Virus record (IMG/VR): IMGVR_UViG_3300030410_000020 | Span: 1-28,533 of that record | Direction: 5' to 3' (one strand) | DNA: 28,533 nucleotides | Source: a virus | In this document: one piece after another, positions 1-14,783 of the stretch | Layout: each line of letters begins with the position of its first letter | How positions within the stretch are numbered: the first letter of the stretch is position 1 | Program-made: the position numbers and the translations under genes | Notes under the pieces: generated by a model | Told to the model about the DNA's origin: nothing | Database searches by the model: none | What the model saw: the letters and a program-made list of their open reading frames with translations, nothing else

Positions 1-3000
1 TGCCTATCTTCTCTGCATATTTATCTAAAATAGCATTGATTGGATCTCCACTCTTATTCTTACCTTTATCAATAATTTCTACTGCCATTGATAGGATTCC
101 TTTTTGCTTTGCGTTTCCTTCTTTATTTAAAATATTGCCTGTTTGTTCGAGCCTTCCACTCTTATTTATTACTTTAGCAAAAGCGTTTTTATCAGATACT
201 AAACTTTGTTTCAATTTAGCAATTAGTTTAACTTTATTTATTGCATTACTTCCAAAATTAAAAGTATCTCCAAATAATCCTGTTTGTGCTGTATTATTTT
301 CAGTTAATCCAGAAGCACTCGCTTTTACCATATCAATAAATTCTTTAAGTTCGCTATTTGTTATACCGTTTTCTTTTTGGATATAATCATATATTGCATT
401 TTGGTTAGCTTCATTTAGTTTATTACCCTTAGGTAAAGCTTCACCTATTATAGAACCCTGGGTGTCATCTAGTGTTTTATTAACTATGTGCATCCATAAT
501 CTATCGTTTAATTGTGCTATATGGTAACCTTGCATTACACTTTTATCCGTATTAGAAAGACCTTTGGATTTAATAGTATCTAAGGAATAATTACCATCCC
601 TGAATACTTGTGCTATATCCTTTGGAGAACCTTGATTCTCTGAAATATTCTGTAAGGCTCCTATCTCTCTTGCCATTTTATCAGTTATGCCATCAGATTC
701 TTTTAAAATCTTAGCATCTATTCTACCCACTTTGTTTCTCTTAGCAAGTTCTAACCTATGATGTCCATTAACTACCCATAGTTTATTTGACTTGTCTTGC
801 CATAAAGTTACTGCATTTGATAATTGATTATCCCACTTATCAGTACCTTTTAATTTATTACTTGCCCCCGTTTTAGTATCTGTATTTTCTTTAAATTGGA
901 ATCTTGTTGGATCTGTATTAATTGAACCTACGCCAACTGATTTTACATTTGAAGAATTAACGATATTTTCTGCTTGTTTAATTTCTTCTTTGGTAGGTAG
1001 AACCTCTTTTACTGTTTTAATATCTGTAGGCTGTATTTGCTCTTTAGGTACATTCTCTGTAGGTTTAGGTTGCTCTAGTGTAGGTTTTATAGAAGTTGCC
1101 TGTATACCATTTATAGCCGGAGCAATAGGCTGATTTGGAGTAGGAGATACATTATTTGCCTTAATTATACTATCACCTTGTGTGGCTTGTATATCTGCAT
1201 TTTGAGGAACATTTAACGCTGTAGGAGTATTTACACCTTCTACGTTAGTTTGCTTCTCTGTGGCAATATTAGGCTCATTAGTTTGCCTTATAGCAAGCTC
1301 TGCATCAACTTGTTTAATTTGGTCTTTAGCGACTTCTTGTACTTGTGGTTTCAACTCGCTCATCATAGAATTTAGATTGTCTTTATGTGCAATTAGTTTT
1401 TCATTTGGTACTTGGTCCATAGGAACAACTATTGAATTACCATTTTGGCTAGTATCCATCATACCAGTAACAAATTGGCTTTTAGGTTGTTGAACTATAA
1501 CCTTTGGTTGATCTACTGTCTGTTGTGTTTCAGGTGTTTGCTGTGCATTTTGAATCCTTGCTACATCATTTCTATGACTTTTAGCCAATGCAGTCAATAT
1601 TGCTTTCATAGCAGGATCATCACTTGCTTGTGCTTCTTTATCGAATCCATCTGCTAAATCTAATTTAACCTGTAATTCTGGCGCAATTGTAACTGACTTC
1701 GGTGCCTTTGTTGGTACGATATTTTGCGAAGGAGTCTTTTCTACTGGTGGAATATTAACATCACTTGTAGGAGTTGTCGCCTTATCCTCTACGAAAACAG
1801 TTTTCTTATCATTATTAACCCATATTCCTGAACTTGGTTGAGTTTCCGTATAGCCTTTTTCGTCAAATTGACTTGGCTTTGTTTCGGTGTTTGTTAAAGG
1901 TTTAATTCCTATTTTGCCCTTTCCGTTTAATAAAACAATATCATAATCATTCGCATTGCCAGTATTTCTAACCCACTTATCGCCTTCATTCCCAAAAGGA
2001 GCATAACCAGCCCTACGCAATGTTTCTTGATAGTTACTTTTTAAGTCTGATGATAAATTTAAAGGTACAACTAAATCGTGAACATTTCTATTTTTTACAG
2101 TATTAACAGTTAATTTAACTGCGTCTATGCCATTATTAAACATATCTTGTACTTTTGGGGTGTTATTAGTGATGCCCTGTTTAACAAACCCTAATGCAGC
2201 GCCACTGCCTCCCCATATGTTACCACTTATATACCCTTCTTTAGCTGCGTTAGCCATTTGAGATAAGTCCCCACCTTGAAGCCCAGTTTGGAAGAAGTTT
2301 AAAAGCCCCATTTCTGTACCGACTTTCTGACCACTTGCAACTATTCTTGCAGGCATACTTTTACCCAAATATTTTTCAACTGCGTTATAAACAGGAGTCC
2401 CAGCTTTACTTAATACGTCTCCAACTTTACCAATCTTAGGGATAGGAATACCCATTTCAACAGCAAACTCTGCTGCTTGTGGTACAAACTCAATTCCTTT
2501 TCCAACAATATTTTTAATCCCTGAATCGTTAGCATGAGTATTTTCTATATTTTTTGCAGTGCTACTGTAATAATCACCAGCTTTATTTAGACTGTTAAAA
2601 ATAGGATCATTGCTTTTATCATACCATGGGTTTACTGTTTGGTTAATTTTTTGGGGAATAGTAAGTAACATCTTAGGTAAATCTGAATAAAATGCTTTAT
2701 CTGCCTTTGCTGCGCCTGCTGTTAAATAATCTGCTACAAATTTAAAAGGGTTATTCGAACTTTGCACAGGTGGATGACTACTTGGTGTATCAATAGTAGG
2801 TGCACTAATAGTCGGTGTTCTAACAGTATTAGTTGGTTTAATAATTGGAATCCATGAATCAACAAAAGGAGCCTTTGCGGGTGTATAGACTTTAGCTTTT
2901 GGTGGGCTAACTAAATTTGATAAATTATTATTAACCGGGAAATTTGAAGAATAATCTGGCGCACTTGTAGGCGCACTAGGTGCTGGCTGTTTATTCCAAG

Positions 3001-3085
3001 CCCCTATAAAAGGCTCTGATGGTGCTTTAAAAACTTTAGGTTGATTAGGTTGATTTGTTTTACCACTTAAACTTATCCAAGCCAT
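1..3085 (-). CDS. Giant virion/ejection polyvalent protein with ParB/Srx-like domain (partial)
   Basis: The minus strand is open from an ATG at 3085 (RBS AAAGGAGAG, 6 nt spacing) to the left edge, giving at least 1028 residues without the C-terminus. The first ~150 residues are Pro/Ser/Thr/Asn-rich; a Gly/Ala-rich, weakly amphipathic stretch and a long Gln/Pro/Thr-rich linker follow. Around residue 770 the motif WVVNGHHRLELAKR and the later ARE-GALQNISENQGSP block look like the ParB/sulfiredoxin-type domain of phage polyvalent proteins (DdrB-like). A TGLFGD motif lies about 160 residues further on. In podoviruses, large proteins encoded after the tail genes are usually packaged and ejected with the DNA, so a role inside the infected cell is inferred. 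The gene is 23 nt downstream of a probable ejection protein. The fold assignment is from motif recognition only. The protein could instead be a purely structural internal virion protein. Confidence 0.75.
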   Translation of the reverse strand, partial: MAWISLSGKTNQPNQPKVFKAPSEPFIGAWNKQPAPSAPTSAPDYSSNFPVNNNLSNLVSPPKAKVYTPAKAPFVDSWIPIIKPTNTVRTPTISAPTIDTPSSHPPVQSSNNPFKFVADYLTAGAAKADKAFYSDLPKMLLTIPQKINQTVNPWYDKSNDPIFNSLNKAGDYYSSTAKNIENTHANDSGIKNIVGKGIEFVPQAAEFAVEMGIPIPKIGKVGDVLSKAGTPVYNAVEKYLGKSMPARIVASGQKVGTEMGLLNFFQTGLQGGDLSQMANAAKEGYISGNIWGGSGAALGFVKQGITNNTPKVQDMFNNGIDAVKLTVNTVKNRNVHDLVVPLNLSSDLKSNYQETLRRAGYAPFGNEGDKWVRNTGNANDYDIVLLNGKGKIGIKPLTNTETKPSQFDEKGYTETQPSSGIWVNNDKKTVFVEDKATTPTSDVNIPPVEKTPSQNIVPTKAPKSVTIAPELQVKLDLADGFDKEAQASDDPAMKAILTALAKSHRNDVARIQNAQQTPETQQTVDQPKVIVQQPKSQFVTGMMDTSQNGNSIVVPMDQVPNEKLIAHKDNLNSMMSELKPQVQEVAKDQIKQVDAELAIRQTNEPNIATEKQTNVEGVNTPTALNVPQNADIQATQGDSIIKANNVSPTPNQPIAPAINGIQATSIKPTLEQPKPTENVPKEQIQPTDIKTVKEVLPTKEEIKQAENIVNSSNVKSVGVGSINTDPTRFQFKENTDTKTGASNKLKGTDKWDNQLSNAVTLWQDKSNKLWVVNGHHRLELAKRNKVGRIDAKILKESDGITDKMAREIGALQNISENQGSPKDIAQVFRDGNYSLDTIKSKGLSNTDKSVMQGYHIAQLNDRLWMHIVNKTLDDTQGSIIGEALPKGNKLNEANQNAIYDYIQKENGITNSELKEFIDMVKASASGLTENNTAQTGLFGDTFNFGSNAINKVKLIAKLKQSLVSDKNAFAKVINKSGRLEQTGNILNKEGNAKQKGILSMAVEIIDKGKNKSGDPINAILDKYAEKIG

Positions 3086-3108
3086 ATAAATCTCTCCTTT
3101 TGTTAGAA

Positions 3109-4290
3109 TTATCTACCATAAAATTGTTGTCCTGGGGTACGATAGAAAGGATCAACCCCCGAAGAACTAGAAGAACTCGAAGAACCTCCATTTGCCATAG
3201 CTGCATTAGTTAAAGCTCCTACAACTCCATCTGCCGTTAATCCGTGAGCGCTTTGGAAAGCCATTACAGCAGCTTTAGTTTGTGGCCCATATGAACCATC
3301 TACTGGAATACCTAAGAAACTTTGTACTTCGGAAACTTGGCTGCTACTTAAACCTCCAGAATTAATAGAAGGTGATTTTGCTTTAGCTTTTGATGATTTT
3401 ACGGCCGCTGCTTGTTGTGTTCTTGCTACTGATGCTCTTGCTGCTGCTGCCGCTGCATTGTTCGCTACTATTTGTTGTGCTTGATTTGCAGCGTATACCT
3501 TATCCCTATAAGCATTATCTACTGCTTGTTGCACTTGATTTGCAGTATATACTTTATCGTTATAAGCGTTTGTCGCTTTAGTATTATTTTCAGTGTCAAG
3601 GATTTGTTTATCTGTTTGAGCCCTTGCATAAGCATTATCGTTTAATTGTTGTGCAAGTGCTGAAATAGCCGAAGTTTGGTCGGTATTTAAAGTATTTATT
3701 TGATTATTTGTATTTGTTTTATTTGTTGCAATTTGGTTATCAACACCTGTTAAAGAATTAGTTCTAGCAGCATTGATACTCGCTAATTGTTTAGTATTAG
3801 CATCATCCATACCCGCAAGCCCACTTGTTAAAATTGTACTTCTTCCAAGTCCTCTGCCTGTTGTAACATTGTCATAGTTATTTTTATTAGATGAGTTTTG
3901 AGTATTTTGGCTTGTAACTTGATTATCAAAGGTTGTATTTATTCCCGATTTTTGATTATTGAGAATTGTATTGTTATTTAAAAGTAAAGCGTTTAAATCA
4001 GATCTTTTTTGATCATATACTGGGTTTGTAGTATTTTGGGCTTGCAGGTTATAATCGTAATTTTTCATAGCGTCATTTGTTGCGGTACTGTCTGCCCCCG
4101 CTAACCTTGTTGCTAAACCTGCATTAACGCTACCTGTTACAGCTGAACCTCCAATTACTAAATCCCCTTTTGCTGCTGTATACTGTCCTGGCTTAGCTCC
4201 TGCCATGTCTACATAATTATACCCATTTGCATTTTTAAGACTTGCCCGTGCATTTGCTAAATCTACTCCACTTGCATATATATTTGGCAT
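3109..4290 (-). CDS. Internal virion/ejection protein with C-terminal peptidoglycan-binding domain
   Basis: 393 residues, ATG with RBS GGAGG 7 nt upstream. Residues ~80-290 are rich in Asn, Gln, Thr and Ala with heptad-like repeats, suggesting long coiled coils. Two near-repeats, AYNDKVYTANQVQQ and AYRDKVYAANQAQQ, lie around 245-275. Residues ~315-365 match PG_binding_1: SSSQVSEVQSFLG, VDGSYGPQTKAAVMAFQSAHG, then TADGVVGALTNAAM. A poly-Ser run and a short Arg/Gln tail end the protein. No catalytic muralytic domain is visible, so it probably anchors to or senses the cell wall rather than cutting it. Its position between the tail genes and the giant polyvalent protein fits a virion ejection protein like P22 gp7/gp20/gp16, which is an inference from gene order. 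Confidence 0.75.
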   Translation of the reverse strand: MPNIYASGVDLANARASLKNANGYNYVDMAGAKPGQYTAAKGDLVIGGSAVTGSVNAGLATRLAGADSTATNDAMKNYDYNLQAQNTTNPVYDQKRSDLNALLLNNNTILNNQKSGINTTFDNQVTSQNTQNSSNKNNYDNVTTGRGLGRSTILTSGLAGMDDANTKQLASINAARTNSLTGVDNQIATNKTNTNNQINTLNTDQTSAISALAQQLNDNAYARAQTDKQILDTENNTKATNAYNDKVYTANQVQQAVDNAYRDKVYAANQAQQIVANNAAAAAARASVARTQQAAAVKSSKAKAKSPSINSGGLSSSQVSEVQSFLGIPVDGSYGPQTKAAVMAFQSAHGLTADGVVGALTNAAMANGGSSSSSSSSGVDPFYRTPGQQFYGR

Positions 4291-4587: not shown

Positions 4588-5400
4588 TTAATTTTTGCTA
4601 CTAAGTATTGCACTCATTTCAATGCTTCTATTTGGAAATTGCTTTACAAAGTTTTCTTTGGAGCATAAATATAAAGAAACTGAATCTGCAAAATCCTCAA
4701 CATTACTTTTTGAACTTTGAGAATATGAAGAACAGTATTTGCCATAATCTGTTGATAATAATTTACTACCATTTTTAAACTCTAAATCTTTTGCCATAAT
4801 ATTATCCCATTCTTTGCTATTAGATAGTCTATCAGTTTGAGTTGATAAAGTTACATCTAAGTTGTGTCCTGCTTCGTGTGCCAAAGTTGGAAGTAATGAA
4901 CTATTATTTAGGTCTTTACTTACTTGATCGTTAGCATAGAAATAAATTTGATTATTGCCTCCAGAAGCATAACTTGTAAAGTTTTTAATTTTATAGCCTT
5001 TATCCCAATATGAATTGTATATATTTTTATAATCTAATAATTGTATTTCAGTTATATTTTTAGTTAACATTTTAGGCAATTTTTTAAATTCATTTGCCAC
5101 TTGAACGCAATTAAACTGTTGTTTGCCTAAACCAATGTCTAAAGGTGTAGTCACCTTAAACCCTTCTTTAAATTCCATTATATGAGCATCTCTTTTAACA
5201 CCGAAAACAAAATTATAATTCGGCATATCGTAACCAAACATTCCAAATTTATCCATAGATATAGCTTTAAGATCCATATACTTAAATATTGAATTAACTT
5301 CTGATTTATTATAAGTTTCTGCCTTAGTTACATCACCTATAAGACTTACAGATAAGACTAATACGCACAAACATAAACTAACCTTTTTAAAATACAACAT
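4588..5400 (-). CDS. Secreted HExxH zinc metallopeptidase (ATLF/PPEP-like)
   Basis: 270 residues, ATG with RBS GAAGGG. Residues 1-28 are a clear Sec signal peptide: basic MLYFKK, hydrophobic VSLCLCVLVLSVSL, then a likely cut near KAET. The zinc site is HEAGH at 175-179 in TLAHEAGHNLD. A second acidic site, NVEDFADS (E235), with tyrosines at 222/226, resembles the third zinc ligand and the transition-state Tyr of the anthrax lethal factor/Pro-Pro endopeptidase group. The H-to-E spacing (about 60) is larger than the ~43 I recall for PPEP-1, so the subfamily is uncertain. It has no tail-protein features, ends in its own terminator and sits among tail genes, so it looks like a moron: a cargo gene that changes the host surface or secretome. 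A role in entry or lysis is possible but less likely with a signal peptide. Confidence 0.75.
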   Translation of the reverse strand: MLYFKKVSLCLCVLVLSVSLIGDVTKAETYNKSEVNSIFKYMDLKAISMDKFGMFGYDMPNYNFVFGVKRDAHIMEFKEGFKVTTPLDIGLGKQQFNCVQVANEFKKLPKMLTKNITEIQLLDYKNIYNSYWDKGYKIKNFTSYASGGNNQIYFYANDQVSKDLNNSSLLPTLAHEAGHNLDVTLSTQTDRLSNSKEWDNIMAKDLEFKNGSKLLSTDYGKYCSSYSQSSKSNVEDFADSVSLYLCSKENFVKQFPNRSIEMSAILSSKN

Positions 5401-5512: not shown

Positions 5513-5887
5513 TTAAACCAATAATCTTAATTGTTCTCTTAAATCTCTCTTTTGCTTTAATCTGCCTTGCCAAATTTGAGGAAGTTTTGTTTCATCTACA
5601 TTCAGTACAGTCCATGTATCTTCTTGAAATCTGCTTAGCACTAAGTCTAAAATCGAAAGTTGATTTTTAATATCTGATATTTGAAGTTCTTTATCCGTTA
5701 TGTCAACTATATAAAAATTATCGCTTACGGCATCATAAGTATTATAAATATCTATTGAATCGTCATTTATTGTTTTAACTATACATCCTGTTGGTATAAT
5801 ATAATCTGGTGGAAGTTCTCTATCATCTACCCATCCTATTATTGAGTTTATATTGCCACCACCGTCTATAAAAACATATCTTTTCAC
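5513..5887 (-). CDS. XkdW-like tail-associated protein
   Basis: 124 residues, GTG start with RBS GGAGG 7 nt upstream. The N-terminal half begins KRYVFIDGGGNINSIIGW and is predicted beta-rich. The C-terminal half (ISDIKNQLSILDLVLSRFQ ... QGRLKQKRDLREQL) is helical and resembles the XkdW/DUF2977-type small proteins encoded just after tail fibre genes in Gram-positive phages. It follows the fibre gene with a 12-nt gap, so a tail-fibre accessory or assembly role is likely. The family assignment rests on gene order and general appearance. Confidence 0.65.
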   Translation of the reverse strand: MKRYVFIDGGGNINSIIGWVDDRELPPDYIIPTGCIVKTINDDSIDIYNTYDAVSDNFYIVDITDKELQISDIKNQLSILDLVLSRFQEDTWTVLNVDETKLPQIWQGRLKQKRDLREQLRLLV

Positions 5888-5899
5888 TTTTGAACCTCC

Positions 5900-7357
5900 T
5901 TAATAGAAAGAAATTGTTCCAGTCCAAGTATTGTTTCCCGCACTAGAATTATAAAACGTCATTGTGTTTGCATCATCATCTCGATAGGTTATACCCAAAT
6001 TGCCAACAGTTCCACTAAATTTCACAATTGGTTTATACCCCAAATTATGATTTACTTGTACGCTACTATTTGCGGGAATTGTAGGGCTCCATGTTGTCAT
6101 TGGTTGCTTGCCTAAACCGTAAAACCCTCTTTCAGACATATATGTTTTGAAAGTCCCAGTAGAACCCCATAGATATAACCCTGCATCATTAGAATTACCA
6201 TCGTAGCTGCCAGATAAAAATGCTCTAAATGTCTGCCGACTATCAGACAACATTATTTCGCCTGCTCCTGTGCTTCTAGATGTAGTTATATCCACTGTCT
6301 TTTTGCTATAACTATCATTAAAAATTTGTATTGTGCCTCCAGAATAATTAGCATCAGACATATGTCCAATGTTAATATTACGGTCACCATTCTCATTGTA
6401 AAAAAAAAGTACCCCACCATACGTGCTAGTCGTAAATTCTGCTAAAACCTTTGTGCCACTCATTTGTCTAATAGTTGCACCATCTACAGTTCCACCGTTT
6501 ATAGCATTACCACTTATAGTACCTTTTGTAACATTTAACCCTGTATTATCCAAAGTAGCAACTGTAACTCCACTTGCATCTTTTACTGTTATACTACCAT
6601 TGACTGCGCCACCTACCGTCATTGTTCCAGCATTAACTGAATTACCTGTAATTGTAGGACTTTCTATTGTTGTTGAAGTAATTTTAGTTGATGTAATATA
6701 AGAAGGTAAAATATCTTCTGGAGCTGGGATATAACTTGTAGCTATTGAGCCTGCCTCTAATTTTAATTCCGAAACAGTAATATTTTGATTTGTATAAAAA
6801 CATAAATTTGCTTGACTGCCTCTTGTAAATGAAACTTTTTGAGAATAATAAGCATTAGTTCCTACTGGTAATGTTGGGACTAATTCGTAAACCCCGTCAT
6901 AAACACCGTTAGAATCTCCTAGGCTAATTCCAATACCATCTGCCACCGTTATAGTATATTTAAAACTAATAACGTAATCTCCCGTTTTCATTTGATTTGA
7001 TAATTTCCAACTTGAAGTTACCCAACCAGTACCAGCTTTTGTTACTGGCGTGCCTGTATTTAAAATTAGATTTCTTCCAACTATTCCTAGTTTGATGTCA
7101 GGGCTTAAATTCCCCCAACTGATAACTGCATTAGGACCCATAGCTATATTAGTGCCTACTATAAGTTCATCAGTCTTAATATTCTTTGCCGTAACTGTGT
7201 TATAAGCTATTTTGTCGCCTGTTACTGCCCCATCTAATATATCTCCTGTGTCGATATTCCCAAAGACTTTAAGCCAAATATATGAGAAGTTATCATTTAA
7301 GTTTTTTATTGTCATTGGAGAAGTTAAATCTCTAATTATCTGTCTTAAAAATCCCAA
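5900..7357 (-). CDS. Tail fibre / minor tail protein
   Basis: 485 residues. It starts at a TTG at 7357, 9 nt from AAGGTGG and 2 nt after the tail-hub stop; a downstream ATG at codon 15 (MTIKNLNDNF) is the alternative. An N-terminal segment with LTSPMTIKNLNDNFSYIWLK resembles fibre attachment regions. Then DGAVTGDKIAYNTVTAKNI and repeated TxGNxxNxGT motifs suggest a beta-repeat shaft. A jelly-roll-like carbohydrate-binding module is plausible at ~95-215 (NLILNTGTPVTKAGTGWVTS ... LKLEAGSIATSYIPAPED). The C-terminus (NSSVQVNHNLGYKPIVKFSG) looks like a small beta domain for host contact. Its role as a fibre is inferred from repeats and location. Confidence 0.75.
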   Translation of the reverse strand: MGFLRQIIRDLTSPMTIKNLNDNFSYIWLKVFGNIDTGDILDGAVTGDKIAYNTVTAKNIKTDELIVGTNIAMGPNAVISWGNLSPDIKLGIVGRNLILNTGTPVTKAGTGWVTSSWKLSNQMKTGDYVISFKYTITVADGIGISLGDSNGVYDGVYELVPTLPVGTNAYYSQKVSFTRGSQANLCFYTNQNITVSELKLEAGSIATSYIPAPEDILPSYITSTKITSTTIESPTITGNSVNAGTMTVGGAVNGSITVKDASGVTVATLDNTGLNVTKGTISGNAINGGTVDGATIRQMSGTKVLAEFTTSTYGGVLFFYNENGDRNINIGHMSDANYSGGTIQIFNDSYSKKTVDITTSRSTGAGEIMLSDSRQTFRAFLSGSYDGNSNDAGLYLWGSTGTFKTYMSERGFYGLGKQPMTTWSPTIPANSSVQVNHNLGYKPIVKFSGTVGNLGITYRDDDANTMTFYNSSAGNNTWTGTISFY

Positions 7358-7359
7358 TT

Positions 7360-8763
7360 CTAATCGCCACCTTCTATATCAATTTGAGGCTCTTTAAGAA
7401 CAAATTTACTCCCGTTTAGATTCTCAAACTTATAACTAAATTTAACACCTTTGTTTTTTAACTTAACATGATACATTTTTTCATTAGAAGTTAGCAAAAT
7501 AGTTCTTTCGCTAATTCTTGAACCATTATCACAACTAACCTTTATTGAACCGTTCCCACTTGCTACAAAATGAACTAATTTATTTATTTTCTTCTGTTTA
7601 AATTGCATACCAAAATTCATATCCCCACTAAGCCAATAAGAATCTAATTGAACACCGTTCCAATTACTACCCACGTTATATTCGCATAGATTATTATTTC
7701 CATCAGCATAGATTAACTTATCGTCAATCTTTAAGAAGTCTGATACTACAATTCCTCTTTTAATCATGTAATTCTTTAAAACAAAATCAAATTCAACTAT
7801 TAAATTATTAACTGTGCTTGAACCTTCTGGAACTGCTAAAATATATTTATTCTTATACACTTCTGCAACCGCATTTTTCATATAATTTTGGTTAACATTT
7901 GAGAATACATTTTTAACCTTTTCTTTTATATCAATTGGTGAAACTGCATCATATAAATACATTCCTTCATTTGTCGCCCAAAATGCTATGTTGTTAACAG
8001 ATTTAATTGTTTTATCAATTATTTTTCCATTTACTGTATTAAATATTTGCTCTAAGTCGTAGTTACCAGGATAAGTTCCAAATATCTTGAAAACATTTTT
8101 AGTCTTAAATATTAGGACATCATTAAAGAGCGTTTTAAGCCCTATTATAGAGCCTCCATCCCATGTAGGTATTATTATCTCTCCACCATGTTGATTAGCT
8201 TGTATAGCATCTGTAGGCACTGTCCAATCATCAGGCTCAAAAGGAGTTCCAAAGTATAAAGTGTTTTTTGCTCCCCCCGAAATCCATAGCCTCTCTTTAT
8301 GAAGTTCTATAAATTTACCTTTTGGGGAAACATTCAATGCCCCTGCTACACTCGCCGCACCGTTATTTTTTAAATCTCTTATTGTTGTGCCATCATAAAC
8401 CTTCACATTTTCTATTCCATTTGTGAAAATAATTAAATCTATTGAGGCTTCTTGGTAATTAACATAATCGAATGAATCGCTTGTAAGACCAATTAGAATA
8501 GAAACCCATACGTTATTAACAAGTTTATATATTGATCCGTTACTTGCTGCCAAAATATCCACTATATCGCCATGATAAAAAGCCATAAGTGAACCTATTT
8601 TAGTTGAGAGCGTTGCTGTAGAATATAACGTGCTACCGTTACAACTTCTTAATAAACCATCTGATATATCGCAATTTTGAGCATCGTAAGCCTCGTCTAA
8701 AGTTATTAACTGTTTATCTGTCGCTTGGTTAATTCCTTTTAGGAATGTTTTTATCTCTGGCAT
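7360..8763 (-). CDS. P22 gp10-like tail hub / stabilisation protein
   Basis: 467 residues from the ATG at 8763, which shares its A with the TAA stop of the adaptor gene (TAATG coupling). A TTG 9 nt upstream would extend the frame but lacks support. The repeated pattern of hydrophobic beta-strands with D/N-G turns (ADGNNNLCEYNVG, ATNEGMYLYDAV, ERLWISGGAKNTLYFGT, KTKNVFKIFG) is that of a beta-propeller-type podovirus tail hub such as P22 gp10. The order adaptor then hub matches P22 gp4-gp10. It should form the hub that closes the portal and carries the spikes. Assignment is from pattern and gene order, not from a profile search. Confidence 0.7.
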   Translation of the reverse strand: MPEIKTFLKGINQATDKQLITLDEAYDAQNCDISDGLLRSCNGSTLYSTATLSTKIGSLMAFYHGDIVDILAASNGSIYKLVNNVWVSILIGLTSDSFDYVNYQEASIDLIIFTNGIENVKVYDGTTIRDLKNNGAASVAGALNVSPKGKFIELHKERLWISGGAKNTLYFGTPFEPDDWTVPTDAIQANQHGGEIIIPTWDGGSIIGLKTLFNDVLIFKTKNVFKIFGTYPGNYDLEQIFNTVNGKIIDKTIKSVNNIAFWATNEGMYLYDAVSPIDIKEKVKNVFSNVNQNYMKNAVAEVYKNKYILAVPEGSSTVNNLIVEFDFVLKNYMIKRGIVVSDFLKIDDKLIYADGNNNLCEYNVGSNWNGVQLDSYWLSGDMNFGMQFKQKKINKLVHFVASGNGSIKVSCDNGSRISERTILLTSNEKMYHVKLKNKGVKFSYKFENLNGSKFVLKEPQIDIEGGD

Positions 8764-12504: not shown

Positions 12505-12529
12505 GAAAAAAGGATAACCGAAGTTACCC
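12505..12529 (-). terminator. UUCG-loop terminator of the HNH cassette
   Basis: Minus strand GGGTAAC-TTCG-GTTATCC followed by TTTTTT. The stem is 7 bp with one wobble and a stable UUCG loop. The HNH stop codon lies inside the left arm. Confidence 0.8.
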
Positions 12530-13384
12530 TGTAATTTGCAATGCTAATTGCTGTATTCCATTTTTATAGTTTAGATATTTTAGTATTTTATGCTCCCGTT
12601 GTTTGGAATAAAATTTCTGTTGTGGAAACCATACGAAAAAATCTTTATTGCTCTTAGAACTATTGCAACTTAAACATATAGGAATAATATTTGATTTGCT
12701 TACTTCCCCGCCATGAGTTACCGGGATAAAATGTTCAAAAGTTGCTTTTTCCAATAAGCAATTACAATAAGCACAATGTAATTCACCATTTTTATTTTTA
12801 AAATAGTTTTTACAAACTTCCCATTCTTCAACTGTAAAATTGTCAGGTAACAATTTTGTTCTTTCTCTTCGCCTTTGTGCCCTTATTATGCCGTGAAGTT
12901 GAAGTTTTTCAGGGTTATCAATTCCCCATTGTTTGGTTTTTAAAATATTGGCCTTTACATTTTTATAATATCTTTTTATTCTATAGTCATGGATTTTTTC
13001 TTTATGTTCTAACCTGTAGATTTGATTTTTTATTTTTAGTTCTTCTTTATGTTCATTGTTATATTTTTTATCCATTTCAAGTTTATGGATCCTATTCTCT
13101 TCATTGGAATAAAAAACTTTTCTATACTCCTTTTTTCTTTCCGCATACTTAGGATAATTAGCTTTAGACATAGCGTGCATTTCTTCAATTCTATCTTGGT
13201 ATATAGCTTTTCTGCTTGTGCTTACAAGCTCTTTGTTGCCGTCTGTATACTCTTTAGTCTCTAATGTGTGACAATATTTACATACTGGTAATAAACCGTT
13301 TTTGCATCTTTTGTGGTGAGTGAAATATTTATCTGATTCTTCTAAAATTGCACCGCATCTTTTGCATACTTTAATATTTGGCAT
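12524..13384 (-). CDS. Free-standing HNH homing endonuclease
   Basis: 286 residues, ATG with RBS GGCGGAGG 9 nt upstream. The N-terminus has zinc-knuckle cysteines (C7xxC10, C27, C35xxC38), as in many phage HNH proteins. A long basic helical region (~60-175, with RRRRER-like clusters) probably contacts DNA. The nuclease domain is at ~204-250: C204xxC207, FEHFIPVTHGG with H218, N232, C237xxC240, then NSSKSNKDF. This is a complete HNH zinc-bound nuclease. The gene is not inside the capsid intron but starts 145 nt after the end of capsid exon 2. It has its own consensus promoter and terminator. It may cut intron-less capsid genes and promote spread of itself and possibly of the nearby intron. Confidence 0.88.
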   Translation of the reverse strand: MPNIKVCKRCGAILEESDKYFTHHKRCKNGLLPVCKYCHTLETKEYTDGNKELVSTSRKAIYQDRIEEMHAMSKANYPKYAERKKEYRKVFYSNEENRIHKLEMDKKYNNEHKEELKIKNQIYRLEHKEKIHDYRIKRYYKNVKANILKTKQWGIDNPEKLQLHGIIRAQRRRERTKLLPDNFTVEEWEVCKNYFKNKNGELHCAYCNCLLEKATFEHFIPVTHGGEVSKSNIIPICLSCNSSKSNKDFFVWFPQQKFYSKQREHKILKYLNYKNGIQQLALQITG

Positions 13385-13495
13385 AATAAAAATACCTCCG
13401 CCGTATTTTATTTTCCGTTTTATAAAATATAGGAAGTAAAGTTCGGAAAACTCTACTTATCGGTTAAGGTAATTAATCTCAACCTATCCTATATT

Positions 13496-13524
13496 ATTAT
13501 ACTACTAAATTATGGATAGTTCAA
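13496..13524 (-). promoter_or_regulatory. Consensus promoter for the HNH gene
   Basis: On the minus strand TTGAAC (13524-13519), a 17-nt spacer and TATAAT (13501-13496). The -10 matches perfectly and the -35 at 5 of 6. It lies just past the capsid exon 2 stop and would transcribe only the HNH cassette. Downstream, AAATAC and GTATTT can pair around the GGCGGAG RBS (13391-13409), which could limit translation. Confidence 0.75.
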
Positions 13525-13528
13525 CTAT

Positions 13529-13585
13529 CTAAATAATTTTACTAGCAACTAGCCATTTCCAGTCTACAAAACCTAGTGAAAAACG
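13529..13585 (-). CDS. Major capsid protein, exon 2
   Basis: 18 codons plus TAG: RFSLGFVDWKWLVASKII. It restores the conserved C-terminal pattern of gpT-like capsid proteins (F-x-DW-x-W near the end), which exon 1 lacks. The frame is open back to the proposed 3' splice site after the G at 13586. With exon 1 ending in NRSRYT, the junction reads NRSRYT-RFSLGFVDW. An alternative boundary one codon upstream (Tyr-Met inserted) is possible. Confidence 0.8.
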   Translation of the reverse strand, partial: RFSLGFVDWKWLVASKII

Positions 13586-13880
13586 CATATCGTAATGTTA
13601 TCGTTAGGCTATTTATCCTAACTTCTATATGTTTCCATATAGCCCAGACTATATCATACCTTTCGGTAGTGGTACTCGTGGGAATTTCATCATACTTTCG
13701 TTTAGATTACTTTTCCTAGTCGTTGAACCTTCATCCTTTTTTAAGGAAGCTCGGCTGCTGATTTTCCAATCTTATTAATTTTCAAACATTCACACTCACG
13801 ATTGCTCGTCATGTTGTAGTTTAATAAGCTCTAAGGACGTTCCAGCAATTCTCCACTTTTTCATTCATACCTGCCTAACA
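13586..13880 (-). ncRNA. Group I intron in the major capsid gene
   Basis: About 295 nt separate the two capsid exons. On the minus strand the classical core elements appear in order: P (AATTGCTGGA, 13850-13841), Q (AATCAGCAGCC, 13763-13753), R (GTTCAACGACTAGG, 13728-13715) and S (GATATAGTCTGGGC, 13655-13642). The GACTA of R and TAGTC of S form P7. P1 pairs the exon end TTATACT with GGTATGA, placing a U:G pair exactly at the splice site after ACT. P9-type hairpins (TATATGGAAACATATA, GTTAGG...CCTAAC) precede the 3' end. No endonuclease is encoded inside. Splicing removes the in-frame TAG that would otherwise end the protein. Confidence 0.88.
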
Positions 13881-14783
13881 AGTATAACGGCTCCTGTTTG
13901 AAGCATCTATTAACCAATTTTTAGTGTTGTCATCCTTATGTGACGCAATTTCTAGTTTCTTTCTGTCTATCCAGAAAAGGTTGCGTTTCATATAAGCAGA
14001 ATCAATTAAAAAGTACATATTGGGATCCGTGATCCATCTGCTTATAATGACTTGGTATTTGTCTTGGTAAGGGTTAGCTGCGTTGGTATTATCAGTTGGT
14101 TTCTTCTCTGATTGGGTTAATTCCCAGGCTACATTTCTATTAGCCCAGCCAGTTAATATTGTGTCAGGGAAAATATTGGCTTTTTCTCCAATATCGTCTG
14201 TAAGACTTTCCATTAAATCTTCTGCTGCCTTTAGCCCTGCTTGGGTTAAGGGATTGTTAGTAAGGTAATTGCCTTGAACTGCTGCCTTACCTGTCTTAGA
14301 AGGATGAGCAACGCTTGCTAAAGGCATTTTGTCGTTGCCTAAACAATCAAAAGTTCCACCAGCCATCGAGAATGTAGGTACTGTACAAAAATTAAAAGGA
14401 GCATGAACAAATTTCTCTCTAGTTCTATTAGAGGCATCTGTTAATGTTCCCGCCTGATTTTGCATATCAATAATCCTAGAGTCATCTATGGTTTCTCTTT
14501 TTATTTCAATACCTTTCTTGAAGACTGTGTGCATAAATTGCTTTGGCCACATTTCTTCCATGTCGTCATAAGGTACCGCTCCATCTGTTGCGACAAAATC
14601 ACCTATTCCATTCATTCCTGCAACTGATTCTGAATAATGGTTTGAACTCTTTACGTTATATAAAGTATTTAAAAGTGAGTTCTTTGCAAAGTCACTTTCT
14701 GATTTAGACATATAAGCCATTATTGGGCCTTCATTTCTCCCAATAGCAGCATCAATCTTTCCTACTGTACTTGTTATAATCAT
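13881..14783 (-). CDS. Major capsid protein, exon 1 (gpT-like)
   Basis: 301 codons from the ATG at 14783 (RBS GGAGG 7 nt upstream). It carries the features of the Mu gpT-like HK97-fold capsid group: KRETIDDSRIIDMQ, FNFCTVPTFSMAGG, the DCLGNDKMPLASVAHPSKTG loop, LTQAGLKAAEDLMESLTDD, INIFPDTIL-type strand (ANIFPDTILTGWANRNVAWE), and NPYQDKYQVIISRWITDPN. Without splicing, translation would stop three codons into the intron after NRSRY. The spliced protein is 319 residues. It follows the decoration-like gene by 12 nt and belongs to the scaffold-decoration-capsid block. It builds the icosahedral shell. Confidence 0.9.

Follow-up and report, generated by a model that had tools for sequence, protein, structure and literature searches.

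An ORF-less group I intron lying beside a free-standing endonuclease gene raises the question of whether the two elements move together as a dedicated pair. Free-standing endonucleases are common in phages, and they are potentially toxic selfish genes. Here, we examine such an arrangement on the minus strand of a virus record that was analyzed in full (28,533 bases, hereafter the window), in which a group I intron interrupts the major capsid gene and an HNH endonuclease gene follows (Table 1). The arrangement had been described in an earlier note as a candidate for collaborative homing. We favor a different explanation, to which we assign a probability of roughly 0.68: the HNH gene is an autonomous cassette, the intron is a separate element, and translation of the endonuclease is probably controlled by a structured leader RNA.

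Group I Intron in the Capsid Gene

The interrupted gene is of the Mu-gpT-like capsid type (PF10124, E = 5e-7; phrog_371, E = 2.9e-12) and shares 28–61% identity with the capsid genes of other phages. The conserved catalytic core of its intron (P3-P9 region) is present. In a restricted scan, RF00028 matched positions 13890–13625 with 50.7 bits (gathering score, 50; E = 1.8e-11), and by blastn the core resembles introns of 533 phage records. No ORF of at least 60 aa was found on the coding strand of the intron interior. This intron was caught by the scan of a short stretch and missed by an Rfam scan of the whole window at the gathering threshold; zero results of gathering-score scans on other loci are therefore weak negatives. 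Group I introns like that at 13625–13890 can be missed by gathering scans of phage contigs.

Judged by the protein match to 11 intronless capsid rows (L014–L017, L007, and L032–L037; eight different sequences over the stretch compared, L034–L037 being alike there), the capsid reading frame is restored by intron removal. When splicing is placed after ...GCTT, the C-terminus predicted from the joined exons is NWLIDAYMRFSLGFVDWKW, and its alignment with all 11 rows needs no gap; the intronless C-terminus of L016 is NWLIKGYMRYSLGFSDWRW. The first P1 model, with splicing after ...ATACT, was rejected because it gave extra residues relative to the intronless relatives. A second intron-bearing capsid gene was not found among 12 close relative rows, of which the twelfth (L008) ends before the intron site.

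Table 1. Features of the capsid gene, its intron, and the HNH cassette in the window.
Feature	Position	Strand	Basis or remark
Exon 1, major capsid gene (ATG at 14783)	13901..14783	-	PF10124, phrog_371
ORF-less group I intron, 310 nt	13591..13900	-	RF00028; boundaries from intronless relatives
Exon 2, capsid gene, 62 nt including stop	13529..13590	-	Spliced frame matches C-termini of intronless relatives
-35 box TTGAAC, HNH promoter	13519..13524	-	Sequence; 17 nt spacing to -10
-10 box TATAAT, HNH promoter	13496..13501	-	Sequence
Three-way-junction leader RNA	13428..13493	-	Fold z-score, model R1, covariation
Leader outer stem	13493-13487 / 13434-13428	-	Predicted fold
Leader hairpin 1, loop AUUAAUUAC	13484-13462	-	Predicted fold
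Leader hairpin 2, loop 13450-13442	13458-13434	-	Last pair competes with outer stem for 13434
Decoy CGGAAAA	13411..13417	-	7/7 Watson-Crick with hairpin-2 loop UUUUCCG (13450-13444); pseudoknot
Shine-Dalgarno CGGAGG	13395..13400	-	Alternative partner of hairpin-2 loop; sequence, swap test
Free-standing HNH endonuclease gene, 286 aa	12524..13384	-	PF01844 E 1.1e-8; phrog_1035 E 3.2e-16
Intrinsic terminator GGGTAAC-TTCG-GTTATCC-T6	12506..12529	-	Sequence and fold
Next gene, 92 aa	12206..12484	-	Order and sequence, by eye

The HNH Gene as an Autonomous Cassette

The HNH protein has an N-terminal CxxC...CxxC and a C-terminal HNH domain, and it retains H218, N232, and N241, which we take to be the catalytic residues of that domain, in alignment A6. 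The anatomy given in the earlier note was largely confirmed: an intron free of endonuclease (no ORF of at least 60 aa within the RF00028 element) adjoins a PF01844 gene with its own TTGAAC-17-TATAAT promoter and a UUCG terminator, the hairpin of which sits at the HNH stop codon and is followed by a T run. The gene is free-standing and close to exon 2 as described, at a distance of 144 nt and not 145 nt. The 92-aa gene that comes next is, by eye, the positional counterpart of small post-capsid genes in L014, L015, L016, and L032; no family match below E 0.1 was found for it among Pfam and PHROG-type profiles.

The intron ends only 89 nt from the TATAAT box and only 206 nt from the HNH start codon. 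At such a distance the intron may be a passive hitchhiker, in that the HNH protein would cut at another place close to its own site, with co-conversion of the intron in the absence of any specific link between the two. Flank co-conversion is reported as established for T4 homing endonucleases (PMC2988022), and these precedents make hitchhiking of this type reasonable, although no phage pair was found in which the transfer is visible. As an account of the locus by itself, we put it somewhat short of an even chance. It is compatible with, and forms part of, the explanation by an autonomous cassette and a separate intron.

A Structured Leader RNA Upstream of the HNH Gene

The earlier note had placed the ribosome binding site (RBS) of the HNH gene in a possible hairpin. 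A structured leader was found, but the small hairpin around the RBS, with the Shine-Dalgarno (SD) sequence in its loop, is by itself a weak fold (z = -0.79), and the significant fold lies upstream at 13493–13428. Compared with shuffled sequences, the stretch 13497–13423 folds at z = -5.46. The region upstream of the HNH gene in the relative L032 has the same folding plan, and further HNH genes likewise. We built a covariance model (R1) from the leaders of L063 and L032 only and searched 100 loci (562 kb). Beyond its own two sequences, the model matched L066 (E = 3.3e-11), the window (0.015), and L070 (0.066), with lower matches in L016 (0.29; at a place that no HNH gene follows), L064 (1.2), and L044 (1.4). 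In L066, the window, L070, L064, and L044, each match is immediately 5′ of an HNH start.

A second model (R2), built from seven leaders, found five leaders that were not in the model, namely, L070b (E = 0.0058), L068 (0.059), L178 (8.7e-6), L180 (0.0019), and L184 (0.17). Among the 14 R2 matches with E up to 0.2, 12 are directly 5′ of the start of an HNH-family gene (seven of these 12 being in the model), and the remaining two represent one place (L102/L245). The R2 matches that are not before HNH genes are those in L102/L245, L016 (two), L131, L056, L047, L042, L217, L186, and the window (two). L073 also gave a match (E = 0.88) in front of an HNH start, and loop and decoy match there by eye; it does not enter the counts. 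The leader thus precedes 12 of 149 HNH-family genes, in 11 records, and is not essential to the family given this low frequency (family membership, E of 1e-15 or lower against a profile of 25). The leader-bearing records are virus contigs from a public collection and, as far as could be seen, without isolates. On the HNH tree, in which most branches are open, the leader-bearing genes show no more clustering than expected by chance (a value as low was reached in 79 of 500 shuffles). L070 carries two HNH-family genes separated by 0.7 kb (1060–1824 and 2404–3271), and each has a leader of its own.

The fold was evaluated in an alignment of 11 leaders fitted to the model (A16), from which L184 was dropped with an E-value above the cut-off. 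Pairing is found in 91.4% of the cells, compared with 62.8% after shuffling, and 57 cells changed on both sides, compared with 18.6. The covariation score is 0.816, compared with 0.280 for shuffled and 0.074–0.185 for slid alignments. Changes on both sides occur in 15 of the 17 pairs and none is invariant; the outer-stem pair 8-74 is unpaired in seven of the 11 rows. Covariation in this alignment provides strong support for the predicted outer stem and both hairpins.

A TATAAT or TATACT box precedes nine of the 12 leaders. Such a TATAAT-like box is absent where expected in L070b and L184, and L070a has only a TATTAT further upstream. In the window, a transcript beginning some 7 nt past the TATAAT box would retain only about four of the seven outer-stem pairs (counted by hand), and the outer stem may be truncated by the transcription start site of the leader. 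A different style of expression is seen in L041, L048, L065, L071, and L072, where a TATAAT- or TACAAT-type promoter is located almost at the HNH start with no folded leader.

The leader RNA itself is probably new, while control of phage endonucleases at the RNA level is already known. When the leaders of the window, L032, and L063 were compared with Rfam 15 (E up to 10), no family reached its gathering score. The best match of the L063 leader was DUF805 RNA (RF03081), which is likewise a cis-regulatory RNA, but its 12.2 bits (gathering score, 51.1; E = 5.6) are at chance level. A gathering-score scan of loci L044, L063, L064, L066, L068, and L070, which is a weak test, gave no leader match; the leaders of L178, L180, and L184 were outside the Rfam scan. 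By blastn, the leader had only short matches in phage records, with E of about 1 or worse among the rows listed. At an E-value cut-off of 0.1, R2 gave 19 matches in bacteria, spread over 18 of 398 genomes, and these are regarded as chance matches because none of the 19 is beside an HNH-family ORF (loci of 1.6 to 3.1 kb). A loose descriptor scan was not specific (148 matches in 1.66 Mb on both strands, compared with 58 in 0.83 Mb of shuffled sequence on one strand). A full-text literature search found no report of such a leader, within a coverage that leaves out many subscription papers.

Predicted Pairing of the Leader Loops

The region from the outer stem to the start codon contains, in each of the first nine leaders, a stretch of 5–7 nt able to form Watson-Crick pairs with the hairpin-2 loop (combined p = 1.9e-5; taken singly, four of nine are below 0.08 and two above 0.18). 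These leaders were partly chosen by eye on the pseudoknot, and the boundaries of loop 2, decoy, and SD were set by hand. The longest partner in L044 and L066 is the SD itself, and their decoys match by 5 and 4 nt, respectively. When loops and decoys were swapped among 11 leaders (L184 was left out for its short spacer), the observed match was never reached in 100,000 trials (p = 1e-5). Swapping loops and SDs gave p = 4e-5 for 12 leaders and 0.0018 for the nine leaders that had not been used when the idea arose; the smallest held-out test, with six leaders, is weak (p = 0.011). The direct sharing of words between decoy and SD reaches only p = 0.014. The predicted duplex energies of loop:decoy and loop:SD are similar (-7.9 and -6.5 kcal/mol, respectively, in the window), as a switch would need. 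The L063 loop matches its own SD by 3 nt only. The first idea on this leader, that loop 2 pairs with the SD only, was replaced by decoy plus SD. Co-variation of the hairpin-2 loop with both decoy and SD suggests a two-state translational switch.

Alternatively, the leader could be only a stable conserved 5′ UTR, acting in mRNA stability or in protein binding for autoregulation, with the SD pairing as a by-product. The deep covariation supports the three-way junction alone, and pyrimidine-rich loops that face a purine-rich decoy and SD are prone to match, as any UUCC-like loop fits any GGAGG (summed match with swapped SDs, 42.6, compared with 54 observed). The swap tests, however, favor each leader's own partners, and in L068 and L180, which have an AGGC-type SD, the same change is found in both loop and decoy. 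We consider this alternative rather unlikely.

Ten of the 12 hairpin-1 loops contain a palindromic hexamer (TAGCTA, TCATGA, TAATTA, TTGCAA, or GTGCAC). Counting distinct loops, seven of nine are palindromic, a number reached in one of 20,000 shuffles. These palindromes suggest kissing dimers or a palindromic binding site. We tentatively propose, at below even odds, that the leader represents a new class of phage cis-regulatory RNA, in which a dimerizable, pseudoknotted three-way junction with an anti-SD loop toggling between an SD-mimicking decoy and the real SD would set the timing or amount of free-standing HNH endonuclease.

Relationship Between the Intron and the HNH Gene

Among the capsid relatives, an HNH gene directly follows the capsid gene in L032 and is absent there in L007, L014–L017, and L034–L037 (the stretch from L033 ends 849 nt past the capsid stop). 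By this pattern of presence and absence, it is an optional gene between conserved genes. L032, which has a capsid protein 55% identical to that of the window, has an intronless capsid gene and an HNH gene 138 nt past the capsid stop. Because the HNH protein of L032 is only 30% identical to that of the window, for which the best match is L070b (41%), the post-capsid slot was probably filled independently in two invasions. Across the family, the HNH genes have varied neighbors, including terminase, portal, tail, tail terminator, major tail, and helicase genes, often with packaging or virion functions. Profile searches of genome contigs found no relatives of the capsid (A2) and one of the HNH (A7), and the single match of the HNH profile A6 among 398 bacterial genomes (E up to 1e-20) came from the centre genome. 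In L046, three Pistol ribozymes (4866–4940, 5177–5245, and 5550–5620) are found inside 1 kb, with an HNH-family gene upstream of them.

A clear group I intron was found near only one of the 149 distinct HNH-family proteins, namely, that of the window. This search combined blastn with four introns and a core regular expression over 256 sequences, with flanks of mostly 2–3 kb. Blastn matched the window (with its copies L002 and L148) and three controls (L038, L039, and L040); the regular expression found only the window with its copies and L040, and missed L038 and L039. One doubtful match of 58 nt (E = 0.003) in the HNH-family bearer L060 would make a strict count two of 149.

True collaborative homing would mean that the HNH protein cuts intronless capsid alleles at or near the insertion site, and that the intron protects from cleavage and travels with the gene. 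The anatomy fits the known case of cyanophage S-PM2, in which F-CphI, an endonuclease with an Endo VII motif, adjoins the intron-containing psbA and cleavage of intronless psbA was reported (PMC6083498); both are phage ORF-less group I introns beside a free-standing endonuclease gene. In addition, the intron of the window is inserted within a conserved capsid stretch (Y-x-R-x-SLGF), as expected of a homing site. Unlike F-CphI, the endonuclease of the window has HNH as its best Pfam match, and in the present system an HNH gene also fills the same slot without an intron (L032). Furthermore, an intron accompanies one of 149 family proteins, and the closest HNH gene, L070b, has a terminase small subunit gene and a DNA repair exonuclease gene nearby, whereas a capsid gene is absent from the stretch examined. 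The comparison of intron and HNH presence among relatives that the earlier note had proposed thus yielded an HNH gene without an intron, but a distant one. The interpretation in that note is partly supported, in that the pairing holds as a layout; a dedicated partnership is not supported. Such a partnership is unproved and not needed to account for the layout, proximity of the HNH gene to the intron is weak evidence for collaborative homing, and the homing reading gains little from these comparisons. We regard collaborative homing as improbable.

Comparison With Other Endonuclease Systems

Free-standing HNH endonucleases are reported in Skunavirus phages (PMC12724721), which resemble the window in having HNH genes between phage genes and outside introns. 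They differ in that no mention of a leader RNA was found; the main text of that paper contains none of the terms "promoter", "ribosome binding", or "secondary structure". The closest parallels for the leader are mobE, segB, and I-TevI of Aeh1/T4, for which sequestration of the RBS by an RNA hairpin is reported (PMC3014915; PMC2988022), and trans homing of the nrdB intron is described for mobE (PMC2988022). These systems and the window share a 5′ leader RNA of a phage endonuclease that is able to hide the SD. The reported structures are hairpins pairing with the RBS, whereas that of the window is a pseudoknotted three-way junction plus decoy, located after its own promoter. A stable local RBS hairpin of the mobE/I-TevI type was not found in the window, where the SD is complementary to a distant loop and the local hairpin is the weak one mentioned above.

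HEARO (omega RNA) is the guide-like RNA of IscB, and a comparable role for the leader is very improbable: a structured RNA is located directly 5′ of an HNH-domain ORF in both cases, and the relative L016 has a real HEARO with an IscB-like ORF in a nearby interval, but the HNH protein of the window has no RRXRR or RuvC-like part (Pfam) and no IscB architecture, the leader has no match to HEARO or to any Rfam family, and it extends into the SD of the ORF that it precedes. In L016, the HEARO RNA (6912–7121; 163.7 bits) overlaps the IscB-like ORF (7057–8433), and the two occupy the interval from the capsid gene to the conserved small gene that comes next, which represents another nuclease in this neighborhood. 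An IscB-like ORF (by eye) also surfaced in L058 (1733–3244) as a distant HNH relative.

Proposed Mechanism and Implications

In the explanation that we favor, a housekeeping-type promoter, a structured 5′ leader RNA, an HNH ORF, and an intrinsic terminator would form one cassette. The HNH gene belongs to a phage family whose members are often lodged between virion and packaging genes, and this one would have settled behind the capsid gene. The ORF-less capsid intron would be a separate element, with any co-movement due to proximity: if the HNH protein cuts a phage that lacks the HNH gene close to where that gene inserts, the intron nearby would often be co-converted during repair. The leader folds into the three-way junction, with the hairpin-2 loop as an anti-SD. 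Pairing of this loop with the decoy would leave the SD free, and pairing with the SD would hide it, such that synthesis of the endonuclease is probably controlled at translation. Through their palindromic hairpin-1 loops, two leaders could form a kissing pair.

To our knowledge, dose control of phage endonucleases is known mainly for a few T4-type hairpins. If the proposed switch is true, a leader sensitive to copy number would signal that enough genomes are present for safe homing. By possibly timing or metering endonuclease translation, this recurrent and covarying RNA would offer a directly testable control mechanism.
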